Positions 21,592 to 26,882 of a stretch of 64,000 bases of DNA are shown here, piece by piece; positions within the stretch are counted from its first letter, which is position 1; every line of letters starts with the position of its first letter. This DNA comes from Caulobacter sp. Lineage in GTDB: Bacteria; Pseudomonadota; Alphaproteobacteria; Caulobacterales; Caulobacteraceae. A program made the position numbers and the translations under genes. Under the pieces are notes generated by a model that was not told where the DNA came from, made no database searches, and saw only the letters and a list, made by a program, of their open reading frames with translations. Location: assembly GCA_030645575.1 (NCBI GenBank), contig JAUSMJ010000064.1, positions 1 to 64,000 of the forward strand, in the 5' to 3' direction.

Positions 21592-21596
21592 ACTCC

Positions 21597-21624
21597 GCTC
21601 ATCCCCGCGAAGGCGGGGACCCAG
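21597..21624. repeat. Left 28-bp inverted repeat bounding the accessory island
   Basis: The 28 bases GCTCATCCCCGCGAAGGCGG... at 21597-21624 are the exact reverse complement of 26851-26878. Each copy is itself a hairpin (TCCCCGCGAAGGCGGGGA). Sequence of this kind is a common dispersed REP in related genomes (from memory), so it may mark the insertion context and not the ends of the element itself. Confidence 0.8.
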
Positions 21625-21692
21625 GTTTTTTCAGGGATGACTTCAAGCGTCCGAGAAGATCCCGCGCCTATCTTGCACGGAGGGCGGCCAGT

Positions 21693-22157
21693 TCAAAAAC
21701 GCCTGGGTTCTGTTGCCAAAGCGTCGCCTTTTCCGGAAGGCATCTGGAGGAGCGTGATCTCCACGCCCTCCTTTCCGATCACGATGCGGTCTGTGATCGT
21801 CTCGACGATTTGACGGCGGTGTTCCCACGGAAGATCAGGCCACTTGCCTGCAAGGTCACGAGCATCGTCCAGGACCTCGTCACGAGAGAGCATGCCTATC
21901 CTGAGTACGTCTCGCTCGGCTTCAAGGCGCGGAAGCTCGTCTTCGATCTGTGCCCGGCGTTCGGATAGCGGCTTGTGCCTTCGTCCGAAGTCCGCCTTGG
22001 CGAGTTCGCCCGCGTGATAGAGGTCGAACAGCTCGTTTTCCGCGATGACGAGCTTCTTGAGTTCGCCGTCGCCGACAGCGATTAATTGCCTAAAGCGTGT
22101 CGGCCTTGTGCCGGCACGCCCCTTCGTTGCGGCCTCGGCAAGTAAAGCGCGACCAAT
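21693..22157 (-). pseudogene. C-terminal remnant of a large serine recombinase
   Basis: Reading the minus strand upstream of the annotated ORF start shows one open frame from a stop at about 22158 to the TGA-type stop at 21693. It encodes ENELFDLYHAGELAKADF, HKPLSERRAQIEDELPRLEAE, SRDEVLDDARDLAGKWPDLP and HRRQIVETITDRIVIGK (quoted in parts). This is the coiled-coil and C-terminal region of large serine recombinases. The catalytic N-terminal domain and zinc ribbon are absent and there is no start codon, so it is a fragment left by an integrative element. The upstream end of homology is uncertain. Confidence 0.75.
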
Positions 22158-22194
22158 TCAATTCTGTCGGACAGCCATCCGGCCTCTATACGAG

Positions 22195-23325
22195 ATGCCC
22201 GCCATGCCCCGAGTTCTCACCATTACCGGATTTGCCGACGTGCACGCGCTGGCGATCGAGAGAGCCATTCGTCTCCAAGGTGGTGAGTCTACGATCTGGA
22301 ACATCTCTGACTTTCCTAGACACCAGCGGATCAGCAGCTTGGTCGATGATGCGGGCGAAAGCCATGTCAACGTCCTGCAGCGGGATCACAGCGTGATTAC
22401 CGGCCCCTTCGATGTAGTGTGGAACCGGCGGGCGTTGAGCAAGAACCTGTATAGCGAGGGTCTCCACGAAGGAGACATGGATTTCGTCCGCCATGAAACG
22501 ACGCTGTTCCTGAGGTCGCTTTACCTGTCGTCTTTCAGGGACGCCTTTTGGTTAAATGCGCCGTTGAACAAATTCCAGGCCGATGCCAAGCTGGCGCAAA
22601 TTCTGGCTGCCAAGGCATGTGGGCTCTATGTTCCGCCGACCCTGGTCTCCAACGATCCTGAGCAAGTCTTGGCATTTGTCGAGCGCTATGGGTGGAACGT
22701 GATCGTCAAATCGTTCCACGGCCATGCTTGGAATGTCGGTGGCGGGCCGGAAGAGCAGCTCTATGTCAACTATGCCGCCAGGGTCAAAGCTGAAGCCTTG
22801 ACGCCGGAGGCGATCGCGGCCTGCCCCGCCATATATCAACGGCTTGTTGAGAAGGCGTTCGAGCTCCGCATCGTGTTGTGCGGCGAGAGTCTTATGGCGA
22901 TCAAGATCGATTCGCAGATCCGCCAGGACACGGCGATCGATTTTCGTTCAGGCCAGGGCACGCTTCCACTGTCCGAATATGCGCTTCCCGATGACGTACA
23001 GGCAAAGCTAATCCAGTTCGCTAAAGCGCTGGGTATAGTGTTCGGCAGCATCGACGCAATTATTACCCCTAATAACGAGTTCGTGTTCCTTGAGGTGAAC
23101 GAGCAAGGTCAGTTTCTCTGGTGCGAGTTAAACAATCCCGACATTCCCGTTACACAATTCGTGACGGATTTCCTTATGTACGGGCGCGCAGACTTCAGGT
23201 GGGAGCGCCCCGAGCGGCCCATGCGGCTTGCGGAAATTGAAGATGCGGAGTTTAAACACAATTTCTCCCATCTCATGTCTCAGAACGAGTACGCCGAACT
23301 CAACAACAAGAATGGCTACGGCTAG
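22195..23325 (+). CDS. MvdD-type ATP-grasp peptide ligase (graspetide-maturase-like)
   Basis: The 376-residue protein has a pre-ATP-grasp domain (MPRVLTITGFADVHALAIER, residues 4-125) and an ATP-grasp domain: NKFQADAKLAQILAAKACGL with TLVSNDPEQV (125-157), the ATP lysine in VIVKSF (K172), YQRLVEKAFELRIVLCGE, KIDSQ, and the metal-binding end GSIDAII (D287) and FLEVNEQGQFLW (E300, N302). ELRxxxxGE, IDSQ and GQFLW are hallmarks of MvdC/MvdD-like RiPP maturases that form ester or amide crosslinks. No precursor peptide was seen nearby. Start is ATG 22195 or 22204; upstream ORF-track residues are antisense of the recombinase remnant. Codon use is far less GC-biased than in neighbours. Confidence 0.85.
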   Translation: MPAMPRVLTITGFADVHALAIERAIRLQGGESTIWNISDFPRHQRISSLVDDAGESHVNVLQRDHSVITGPFDVVWNRRALSKNLYSEGLHEGDMDFVRHETTLFLRSLYLSSFRDAFWLNAPLNKFQADAKLAQILAAKACGLYVPPTLVSNDPEQVLAFVERYGWNVIVKSFHGHAWNVGGGPEEQLYVNYAARVKAEALTPEAIAACPAIYQRLVEKAFELRIVLCGESLMAIKIDSQIRQDTAIDFRSGQGTLPLSEYALPDDVQAKLIQFAKALGIVFGSIDAIITPNNEFVFLEVNEQGQFLWCELNNPDIPVTQFVTDFLMYGRADFRWERPERPMRLAEIEDAEFKHNFSHLMSQNEYAELNNKNGYG

Positions 23326-23343
23326 GATTAAGCGTGGAACTGC

Positions 23344-24303
23344 ATGATGGTCATTGAATGGTTGCTCCTTGGCGCCGGTCTGGGCATGCAGGTTCCCCCC
23401 GCGCCGCCAATGGCTCAAATCCAACCGGCCGACATCCAGCAAGCCACGGATGAGTTCGATTTCGGTCGCCTGATTTTTGCGCCGGCGGCCGATGAGCGGG
23501 CTAAATACGCGCAGCTGCTTGCGTGGGCGGAAAGTCGCCCTTCCGTCGCCGAGCCCAATCCGCCGGGCAAGGGCGAAGCCGATCCCTATGCCAACGCCTG
23601 CTTCGAGCCGGTGCAAGCCAACTACATCATCGCCTGGCGCCCGCGTCCGGGCCTGGACAGCCCGTCCTCCTACGCCCAGGCCCGCGGCAAGATCGTCGGC
23701 GCCTTGCGCGCCATAAAGGCAAGGTATTTGGCGACGACGAAGGGCGAAACCACGGCGGGACCGTCCCTGGGGGCGCAACTCGAGGCTCAGGTACGCGTCG
23801 ATCAAGTCTGGTTCGGTTCCGCCGTCGACGTCTGGCTGGAGCTCTTTCCTCAGGCGACGGATGAAGAGACCACGTGGTTTTTTTCAATCCTGCAGGCCAA
23901 GCAATGCGAGATCGAGGCCGACAGCGTGAAACTGCTGACCCGTTTGTTCAAGGTGACATCCTGGCCTGACGACGCCGCCTATGGCGACGGCGCCAGTCAC
24001 GCCGCCTGGGTTCTCGCGCAGCATGCCGACCATCATCCGTCTCTGCAACGACTGGCCGCCGCCCGCTTGAGACGCGCCGCTTCGGCAGGTGAGGCGTCAA
24101 CTGCGGACTACGCGTTGCTTCAAGACCGTGTCCAGGTCAGGTTGGGCTTACCCCAGGTGTATGGCTCGCAGTTTCACGCGAGTTGCGGTGGCAACGTTCC
24201 GTATCCGATTCTGGACGAGGCGAACGTGGATGAGCGCCGCAAAGCGGTCGGCCTGTCCTCGCTGGAAGAGTACAAGGCCAAAATTGGACGTCCGTGCAAA
24301 TGA
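23344..24303 (+). CDS. DUF6624 family protein, putative exported, paired with ATP-grasp ligase
   Basis: The 319-residue protein begins with a hydrophobic segment (MVIEWLLLGAGLGMQVPPAPP) that may be a weak signal peptide. The C-terminal half has the DUF6624 pattern: AAWVLAQHADHHPSLQR, YALLQDRVQVRLGLPQVYGSQF and YPILDEANVDERRKAVGL. The function of this family is not known to me. The start lies 18 bp after the ATP-grasp stop, so the two genes are probably one transcript; the protein may be a substrate, partner or immunity factor. The middle region (residues 60-130) is higher in GC than the ends. Confidence 0.82.
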   Translation: MMVIEWLLLGAGLGMQVPPAPPMAQIQPADIQQATDEFDFGRLIFAPAADERAKYAQLLAWAESRPSVAEPNPPGKGEADPYANACFEPVQANYIIAWRPRPGLDSPSSYAQARGKIVGALRAIKARYLATTKGETTAGPSLGAQLEAQVRVDQVWFGSAVDVWLELFPQATDEETTWFFSILQAKQCEIEADSVKLLTRLFKVTSWPDDAAYGDGASHAAWVLAQHADHHPSLQRLAAARLRRAASAGEASTADYALLQDRVQVRLGLPQVYGSQFHASCGGNVPYPILDEANVDERRKAVGLSSLEEYKAKIGRPCK

Positions 24304-24643
24304 CCGGCGCACGATGGACCTTAGGCACCACTTGCCCGCAAGTCGTTGCCGACGATTCGAGGGCAAAGGGCAAAACTGCCCGAAGGGGGCTTAGAGTCCT
24401 CTGGAAATTCACGGATGTGCGTTTCTGCATAGCGGGTAACCTTTGTATTTTCGCCAAATGCCCCCTCCCAGCGAGCTATGAATCGTCAATGCGCTCGTCC
24501 GTGATCCGCATGCTGTCCTGATGAAAGAGCGCACGTGATCCAGAAGGGCGCCACTTCTACACGCCGTTTTGATAGTCGATTCCATGTTGAGGGGGCCCGC
24601 GCCACCGGCCGCCAAACCACAGGATTTCCGCAACGTGGCAAGG
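24304..24643. other. Non-coding or unassigned stretch inside the island
   Basis: These 340 bases have no convincing gene. ORFs of 72-106 codons on both strands have poor codon usage and no recognisable motif. A small hairpin (GGGCAAAACTGCCC) lies at about 24368-24381. I searched all frames for a short graspetide-like precursor with a TxK-type or repeated acidic core and found none. Confidence 0.5.
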
Positions 24644-24901
24644 CTATATGCCCACGTTCACGGGAAGCTCCTTCGCTACGGCCGTGAATAGCATAACGGG
24701 GTCGATCTTCAGGGCTTGGGCAATGGCGTAGAACTCGATGACGTCGAGGCGTCGGACGCCCCGCTCGATCTGAGAGATGAACGACTGTGTCCGCCCCAGA
24801 CGCCGTGCCAACTCTATCTGGGTGACGCCCGCGTCCCTGCGGGCCGCGACAAGCACGGCAAGCATCGTCGCATAAGCACCGGTGAAGACCGATTTCGGCA
24901 T
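24644..24901 (-). CDS. XRE family helix-turn-helix regulator
   Basis: From the ATG at 24901 the 85-residue protein is almost entirely a Cro/C1-type [51 protein letters not shown]. The long ORF-track frame starting at 25633 is antisense of other genes and is rejected. Such short single-domain repressors are common in mobile elements. Two stacked inverted repeats 55-90 bp upstream are likely its operators, so it may repress itself and the divergent gene at 25002. Confidence 0.88.
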
Positions 24902-24956
24902 GGAAAGCTGGGACCTGACGCAAACCCAGCCCTTCCGGTATAGGTGATCTTCTGAT

Positions 24957-24987
24957 AGTCGATATTCGACTAGTTGAATTTCAACTA
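24957..24987. promoter_or_regulatory. Two stacked inverted repeats, probable XRE operator
   Basis: AGTCGA-TAT-TCGACT (24957-24971) and TAGTTGA-ATT-TCAACTA (24971-24987) share one base and form two perfect inverted repeats, each with a three-base spacer. They lie between the XRE gene and the divergent ORF at 25002. Cro-like repressors bind paired half-sites of this size, so this is a plausible operator pair. Confidence 0.65.
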
Positions 24988-25001
24988 TCGGGGTACCGCT
25001 T

Positions 25002-25616
25002 GTGAGCGCGGACGGGGCAGTAAGAGCGGGGGCAGGTGCGAGCGTAGAGCTGGGGTATCTGTACACGCCTCTGGCCTCGCTCGCGGCGCTGCATAGCGAA
25101 CAATCGACCCATCGCCTGATCCGAGAGGTTCTCAGCTTTTCGAGACCTCGGCCGCGAACGCTTCTGCTCCTTCGCGCCCGCCCGCTTCTGCTCTTCCGCG
25201 CCCTTGCAACGCCGAATTTCGAGACGCTTCGCTTCCTCGACCTTGCCGGACACGCGGGCCGGCCCCCGTTAATCCTGGAGCTGCGGGACGATTGGTTCAC
25301 GCCAACCGTCAACCTGTCCAAGCGGCGGCTGGGCAAGCTGAGAATCCATCGGACGTCGGACAGCTCAGGTGCAACCCGATCCGTCTCGGTCGTGTCGTTC
25401 AATGAGCGTGGACGCCAGCGGATCAGCGACCTCAGATGTAGCGACGGGACGCCGTTCATCGACATGCACCATGGCATGCTGTCAGCGGTTGCTGGCGACG
25501 AACTCTCCGGCCGGGTCATCGACATCGCGAGCCTCTGCGATGCCGTTGGTCCCCGCAGCCAGTATGAGCGGGTCGCTTCCGCTCGCTCATGGATGAGGGT
25601 GGCGTGCTCCTGGTGA
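25002..25616 (+). CDS. Uncharacterised island ORF
   Basis: The 204-codon frame opens with a GTG 15 bp after the paired inverted repeats. Codons from about 25260 to 25570 show strong GC3 preference and a varied protein ([51 protein letters not shown]), so that part is likely genuinely coding. The first 85 codons are Leu/Arg-rich, contain a 21-bp tandem repeat (CGCTTCTGCTC...) and may not be. The 3' end overlaps the T4CP remnant. No family is recognised; it may itself be a fragment or fusion produced by rearrangement. An alternative charged ORF on the other strand (24981-25253) cannot be excluded. Confidence 0.4.
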
Positions 25617-26074
25617 ACCTCTCGAAGGGCCAACTCGGGGAAGATAGCGCCACGACGCTCGGTGGACTTCTGGTCTCAACCATCGGCCTTGCGGCCCTCA
25701 GCAGGGCCGAGATGCAGGCCCAGGAGCGTCGCCCCTTCTTCCTCCATGTGGACGAGTTCCAGAGCTTCACGACGCTCTCCTTCGTCAACATGCTGTCGGA
25801 GCTTCGCAAGTACGGCTTGGGGCTCACCCTTGCGCACCAGCACTTCCACCAGCTTGATCCCGATGTGCGCCATGCCGTCCTGGGCAATGCCGCGACCTTG
25901 ATCTCTTTCCGGGTCGGTCCCGAGGACGCGATGATCCTGGCTCGGGAGTATCAGCCGACGTTCGGCGTTGAAGACCTGATCAACCTCCCGAACCAGCACA
26001 TCTACCTGAAGCTCATGATCGACGGGACGCCCTCACGGCCGTTCAGTGCGCGCACTGTTGCGCCAACGGTTTGA
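25568..26074 (+). pseudogene. C-terminal fragment of a conjugative coupling ATPase (TraG/TraD-like)
   Basis: The frame encodes [37 protein letters not shown], the Walker-B-like FFLHVDEFQSFTT, LRKYGLGLTLAHQHFHQL and NAATLISFRVGPEDA. These are the TraM-recognition/TraG-D C-terminal ATPase blocks of type IV coupling proteins. Homologues are several hundred residues longer, and the Walker A region is missing: the frame meets a stop at 25565. An ATG at 25589 could start a 161-residue product, but it would lack the P-loop. It is best read as the tail of a decayed conjugation gene. Confidence 0.75.
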
Positions 26075-26323
26075 TGCGGGGTTTTGAGCCTTGGGAGCCC
26101 TTCCGCAGAAAATCCGCGAACCATGCACGGCTTCGTTTGGGGAGCGTTGTGGAGCGGGCCCGCCGCCGGTCAACCCGCGTCGCTTCCTCCGCCTTCGGCT
26201 CCGTGCAGCTCGCCCCTCCGGGCGCGCCTAGGCGCGGGGTCTGACCGCCAGCTCCTTGGCCCACTCCAATGACTCCCCATGAAGCCGCGGAATGGTCCGC
26301 GGCAGACTTAGGAGGAAACCCTC

Positions 26324-26542
26324 ATGGCCCAGCAACTCCCCCTCATGCACCGCAAGCCGACCCACCGGCTGTACCGCGTCCTTGGTGACGGGGCGGGCGC
26401 GATCTGGACCCCCATCGGTGCGGCATGGCCGAACAAGGATGGGCAGGGGTTCAACATCAGCTGCGACGCGGTGCCGCTTCAGGGCCGCATCGTGATGCGG
26501 GCGATCACCGACAGAACGGAGGAGGCGCGAGGTCAGCAATGA
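26324..26542 (+). CDS. Small uncharacterised mobile-element protein
   Basis: The 72-residue product (MAQQLPLMHRKPTHRLYRVLG...) has a very good ribosome-binding site, TTAGGAGGAAACC, seven bases before ATG. It contains TPIGAAWPNKDGQGFNI and CDAVPLQGRIVMRAI, a compact pattern I associate with short proteins in alphaproteobacterial plasmids and ICEs, of unknown role. No transmembrane segment or cysteine pair is present. The strong RBS and complete frame argue that it is expressed. Confidence 0.7.
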   Translation: MAQQLPLMHRKPTHRLYRVLGDGAGAIWTPIGAAWPNKDGQGFNISCDAVPLQGRIVMRAITDRTEEARGQQ

Positions 26543-26603
26543 CCTCCACTCCGAAAGAGCGGAGTGCAACTGGAGGCGCGAGGCGGAGGCCTCGCGCCTC
26601 GCT

Positions 26604-26834
26604 TCATTTCAGGAAGCGATCAATGGCCGGGCGGTATCTGGCGGCTGGCGTCTGCCGCCCTTGCTCCCACAGCCCGAGCGTCCACCGCGTAACGCCCAGC
26701 CGTGCAGCGGCCTTGGTGCAGTTGAGCCCGAGCTGGCGGCGGCGTCGCTTGAGCCTGCTCGCGACGCTCTCGCCTTGCTGGGCCTTCAATTCCGTTCTAC
26801 TGGCCCGGATATGCAGGGGAACGCCCGGTACCAA
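26604..26834 (-). CDS. Short helix-turn-helix protein
   Basis: The 76-residue protein ends with an HTH: SRLKRRRRQLGLNCTKAAARLGV followed by TRWTLGLWEQGRQTPAARYRP. This is the arrangement of single-domain XRE-like proteins frequently found in mobile elements. The first 22 residues are poorly conserved in character and the true start may be further downstream. Its target is unknown. It is the last gene before the right 28-bp repeat. Confidence 0.65.
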   Translation of the reverse strand: MVPGVPLHIRASRTELKAQQGESVASRLKRRRRQLGLNCTKAAARLGVTRWTLGLWEQGRQTPAARYRPAIDRFLK

Positions 26835-26850
26835 AAAGGCAACATGACCT

Positions 26851-26878
26851 CTGGGTCCCCGCCTTCGCGGGGATGAGC
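26851..26878. repeat. Right 28-bp inverted repeat bounding the accessory island
   Basis: CTGGGTCCCCGCCTTCGCGG... at 26851-26878 is the exact reverse complement of 21597-21624. It is a hairpin lying 4 bp after the HAD gene stop and may also terminate transcription of that gene. Confidence 0.8.
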
Positions 26879-26882
26879 GGTT

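Follow-up and report, generated by a model that had tools for sequence, protein, structure and literature searches.

A ligase-DUF6624 gene pair on an acquired island of a Caulobacter genome, a probable remnant of a graspetide cluster

Overview of the locus

Two adjacent genes in the 64,000-nucleotide stretch of Caulobacter DNA analysed here (the window) encode a homologue of graspetide synthetases and a DUF6624 protein, and the pair is probably left over from a graspetide cluster that was acquired horizontally and of which only a remnant, the synthetase and its DUF6624 accessory, was kept. Both genes are located on the forward strand with a gap of 18 bp, as the initial annotation had placed them, and both reading frames were found to be open throughout and intact in an ORF check. 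The features of the locus are listed below.

21595..21624, + strand: left arm of a perfect 30-nt inverted repeat, REP-like (repeat search, genome copies)
21625..26850, no strand: acquired island of 5.2 kb (absent from six congeners; GC)
21693..22073, - strand: large serine recombinase, C-terminal remnant without the catalytic N-terminus (48% identity over 100 aa)
22195..23325, + strand: ATP-grasp ligase of 376 aa, graspetide-synthetase homologue of the GG-leader clade (TIGR models, MdnC/MdnB structures, tree, invariant residues)
23344..24303, + strand: DUF6624 protein of 319 aa with a hydrophobic N-terminus (PF20329 E 2e-13, invariant residues, hydropathy)
24647..25030, - strand: helix-turn-helix regulator (PF01381 E 7e-11)
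25589..26074, + strand: conjugation coupling protein fragment of the TrwB/TraG type (PF10412 E 7e-6, PF12696 E 4e-5)
26851..26880, - strand: right arm of the same 30-nt inverted repeat (repeat search, genome copies)

The ligase and its clade

The ATP-grasp catalytic blocks of graspetide maturases that had been read from the sequence at first are present in the ligase as VIVKSF, ELRIVLCGE, IDSQ and FLEVNEQGQFLW. An alignment shows that it retains all the residues that are invariant among 35 relatives as well as D-x-R of the 'DFR' motif. It also aligns nearly end to end with the microviridin ligase structures 5ig9 and 5ig8 (MdnC/MdnB; E 7e-33 and 1e-32), and an ATP-grasp fold is predicted from its sequence. 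With an ATP-grasp and a pre-ATP-grasp domain, MdnB/MdnC homology and the DFR motif, the protein is assigned by sequence as a putative graspetide synthetase.

The graspetide maturase models TIGR04187, TIGR04185 and TIGR04184 were matched at E 1e-48 to 1e-44, where the scores of 150-164 bits are below every one of their cut-offs (350-475 bits). As an example, the score against TIGR04184, the MvdD equivalog, is 150 bits compared with a curated cut-off of 475, and the match to PF21068 (E 1e-4) is likewise under the Pfam cut-off. In the tree, the ligase falls inside a GG-leader clade with a support of 100/98 while cyanobacterial MvdC/MvdD and streptomycete TgmB fall outside it. The 'MvdD-type' label given initially is therefore not retained, and from its sequence the enzyme is better described as graspetide-like. 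Its nearest neighbour within the clade is uncertain, as the branch of the ligase is long, and its closest identity is only 34%. PADLOC gave no match to either the ligase or the DUF6624 protein, no close relative of the ligase (P0001), the DUF6624 protein (P0002) or two further DUF6624 proteins was found in the viral contigs searched, and no sigma-70-like promoter above chance was observed.

Relatives were collected by a one-genome-per-species search, which gave 60 ligase loci chiefly from Legionella and other Proteobacteria, and by a search of 101 related genomes, which gave five more loci, all of the same genus. Small ORFs are located directly upstream of most related ligases and share the leader RVLAxxLAxxIxxxELxxVSGG, followed by an Asp-rich core that contains Ser/Thr. 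A leader profile seeded with only four of these small ORFs recovers the remaining ones, and after iteration it detected a leader-family ORF upstream of 60 of 100 related ATP-grasp ORFs, a set that includes distant ones. A recognisable leader is missing at some of the related loci, and precursors without the leader motif were observed near some relatives.

Downstream of the ligase, the Legionella-type loci encode a HEAT-repeat protein (41 loci), HlyD (34) and a C39 peptidase-ABC exporter (34). The loci L002-L059 from Legionella and relatives, L010:5506-11408 for instance, typify this arrangement: these graspetide-type clusters have one to three GG-leader precursors and a ligase with the conserved HEAT-repeat protein directly downstream, together with HlyD and the C39 exporter. 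The HEAT-repeat protein may serve these ligases as a dedicated partner, and we found no description of it. The clusters of Legionella and other Proteobacteria share their ATP-grasp clade with the window, but the precursor or precursors, the usual HEAT-repeat protein, HlyD and the C39 peptidase-exporter that they carry are all missing from it.

Two further observations concern the more distant ATP-grasp genes. Tandem Gly-rich small ORFs upstream of four of them (L113, L114, L118 and L120) share the ending DNTSIGDIN(I)(S/T)S and, judged by their sequences, form a precursor-like family different from the GG-leader one. At four others (L098, L099, L107 and L110), the downstream gene encodes a membrane protein for which about two transmembrane segments are predicted; these proteins could be partners with an immunity or effector role.

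The DUF6624 protein

The second protein matches PF20329 (DUF6624) at E 2e-13 with 50.5 bits, which is above the Pfam gathering cut-off of 27. Of the profile placements proposed initially, the DUF6624 one therefore stands, while the MvdC/MvdD models are matched below their cut-offs. Residues H227, D261, R262, Q271, Q276 and R299 are invariant across 23 DUF6624 homologues and all six are kept in the window protein; this conservation suggests an active or binding site. A search of solved structures with the DUF6624 profile gave no match, and structure prediction from three sequences reached a pLDDT of 44.

Hydropathy analysis shows a hydrophobic N-terminus in 28 of 32 DUF6624 proteins, that of the window among them, which suggests that most of them, including this one, are exported. 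The Xylella protein described below has no such N-terminus and therefore export is not general. The family is widespread, being found in 45 of the 101 related genomes of the order and in three copies in this genome, and six of the seven plasmid DUF6624 loci examined have no ATP-grasp gene. One such free-standing gene was observed on the Klebsiella pneumoniae plasmid pKPN-b9c (L126:3980-4525), between dfrA1 and aadA1 in a class 1 integron. In a DUF6624 tree, members linked to graspetide synthetases could not be separated from free-standing ones.

We would rank a processing or tailoring enzyme as the first candidate role for DUF6624, an immunity factor as the second and a partner like MirC as the third. 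The last of these would make DUF6624 an obligate cytoplasmic partner of the synthetase by analogy with rosaritide biosynthesis, where a synthetase (MirB) is likewise found with an adjacent accessory protein (MirC) that it requires. The position of DUF6624 directly 3' of the synthetase and the Xylella protein without a hydrophobic N-terminus are in keeping with such a role, which we nevertheless regard as unlikely given the export-suggesting N-terminus of most DUF6624 proteins and the frequent occurrence of either gene without the other. Furthermore, MirC is PpiC/SurA-like and by annotation unrelated to DUF6624, and dependence on the partner has been demonstrated for MirC only. Another parallel may be the cluster 23 family of PMC8939145, a secreted and frequent companion of graspetide ATP-grasps which has a conserved His and Arg as DUF6624 does; by this likeness the two may be the same family.

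Recurrence of the ligase-DUF6624 pair

The pairing is real and it recurs elsewhere. In Pseudoxanthomonas sp. GM95 (L056, - strand), a GG-leader precursor, the ligase and DUF6624 occur in this order with a gap of 4 bp between the last two genes, and the same order was observed on pPLS206, a conjugative plasmid of Xylella taiwanensis, where the precursor has 74 aa. In these two loci and in the window, DUF6624 is located directly downstream of the ligase with gaps of 4-68 bp. A more divergent case is found in Legionella (L048), where a precursor and a ligase are accompanied by a DUF6624-like protein that retains the QHxD, DR and GxxQxFGSQF motifs. The short ORF sought near such pairs is thus present as a precursor in all three. 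The four pairs are scattered across the ligase tree, and DUF6624 is missing from most relatives of the synthetase.

Two neighbouring genes were also noticed at these loci. Pseudoxanthomonas sp. GM95 encodes another ligase of this clade, together with a GG-leader precursor of its own, about 2.5 kb from the DUF6624-linked one (L056:5932-7101), and a secreted trypsin-like protease is encoded just upstream of the Xylella cassette (L125:2098-3135). Many graspetides inhibit serine proteases.

That an acquired ATP-grasp gene and an unrelated DUF6624 gene simply landed together is improbable. The abundance of DUF6624 in the related genomes and the failure of its tree to resolve a graspetide-linked subfamily would be in line with such an event, but only about 0.01 chance pairs are expected in 65 downstream slots whereas one clear and one weak pair were seen with the window excluded; the Xylella pair was left out of this estimate since it was found by searching with both proteins. 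The pairing recurs in separate lineages, and the two window genes share a low GC3 within one island. In addition, DUF6624 has been published as occurring at high frequency in graspetide groups 18, 20, 23 and 42 (PMC13097080, 2026). The pairing is therefore already documented in print and is not new, in contrast to the initial view that it was not an established system. Clusters of those groups resemble the window in having a synthetase together with a DUF6624 gene, but the groups are defined by precursor core sequences and the window, which has no precursor, can therefore not be assigned to any of them.

The initial annotation had also considered DUF6624 itself as a substrate of the ligase. 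This candidate was rejected as unlikely, since in two independent pairs a GG-leader precursor is encoded separately.

Missing precursor and exporter

The window pair is orphaned, as both a precursor of the family leader type and a C39 peptidase are absent. The leader profile found no precursor-like ORF in any of the six frames of the window, the best hit (E 0.23) being inside carA, which agrees with the earlier failure to see a short precursor gene nearby. The suggestion that a precursor might be encoded elsewhere in the genome was not borne out, since an alignment of 17 precursors gave nothing at E up to 10 against the whole 3.2-Mb genome. As a control, the same search was run on four further genomes and recovered the precursors of all of them (E 2e-15 to 3e-14); two of these genomes hold precursors outside the 17-sequence alignment. 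No match to the C39 peptidase family (PF03412) was found in the genome, so that neither the cluster nor the genome has the peptidase-exporter of a complete GG-leader cluster, while the family search was positive in eight of 14 control genomes. The island also has no conserved small ORF. The leader searches cover the family leader in window and genome and are blind to precursors with unrelated leaders.

These results bear on a different reading, that the two genes are a functional orphan pair in which the ligase, partnered by DUF6624, crosslinks or otherwise modifies an unrecognised peptide or protein such as a host protein or a precursor with another leader. Both genes are intact and keep all the conserved residues, precursors that lack the leader motif are found near some relatives, and graspetide-type loci without detectable precursors have been reported (PMC8939145). 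We consider this reading unlikely, as the island lacks a conserved small ORF, the genome lacks a C39 peptidase and the two genes are surrounded by truncated mobile-element genes. Rather less likely still is a minimal two-gene system, in which the synthetase and DUF6624 would act on a substrate without a GG leader (e.g. a protein of the host or a peptide provided in trans) in a genome with no C39 exporter.

The acquired island

Both genes belong to a segment that is absent from six congeners, where the flanking amidohydrolase and HAD genes adjoin. The GC content of this island is 0.608 compared with 0.701 outside it, and GC3 is 0.69 in the ligase gene and 0.73 in the DUF6624 gene but 0.91-0.95 in neighbouring genes; positions 22261-22320 contain 29 G or C in 60. 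The low GC read from the sequence initially is confirmed by these values, and the horizontal origin is supported. The 26-nt core of the bounding inverted repeat occurs in 18 exact genome copies, often as close inverted pairs, and is therefore regarded as a REP-like element, of which one pair brackets the 5.2-kb insertion. A search of plasmids gave no close DNA relative of the island.

The recombinase remnant, which was unrecognised by Pfam and by the plasmid collection, was found by a class-level genome search, in which it aligned with the C-terminal portion of a 529-aa recombinase ORF (locus L163). On the strand opposite to the ligase, the remnant stops near 22073, some 120 bp short of the ligase start, in the place where relatives carry a precursor. 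A loosely leader-like ORF of 36 aa at 21975-22085 (+ strand) was rejected as a precursor candidate; it is antisense to the remnant and is not scored by the leader profile.

Proposed origin and function of the pair

In the remnant reading, the ATP-grasp enzyme of the original cluster would phosphorylate Asp/Glu side chains of a precursor with a GG leader at the expense of ATP, and the activated residues would be joined to Ser/Thr/Lys side chains to form macrolactones or macrolactams. As an accessory, the DUF6624 protein, which is probably exported, would either process or tailor the peptide or serve as an immunity factor. The cluster then seems to have lost its upstream end, probably by rearrangement, which would have left the truncated serine recombinase next to the ligase at the site of the precursor.

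This reading is supported by the full-length homology of the ligase to graspetide synthetases with its membership of the GG-leader clade; the pairs with precursors in Pseudoxanthomonas and on pPLS206 together with the divergent Legionella pair and the published association; the negative leader and C39 searches with positive controls; and the island with its empty site in congeners and its recombinase remnant. Counting against it are the intactness of both ORFs, which is not needed in a decaying remnant, a possible precursor with an unrelated leader, the lack of a recognisable leader at some related loci, and the Xylella DUF6624 protein without a hydrophobic N-terminus together with the low closest identity of the ligase.

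The locus adds a divergent ligase-DUF6624 pair in a chromosome that, judged by its relatives, is of alphaproteobacterial type, and gives a caution that a synthetase and DUF6624 can persist without a precursor or an exporter. DUF6624 is widespread and recurs beside graspetide synthetases, and its role is a question posed in print. For this question, the survey supplies two compact precursor-ligase-DUF6624 cassettes, in Pseudoxanthomonas and on the Xylella plasmid pPLS206, which are fitter for experiments than the window copy.
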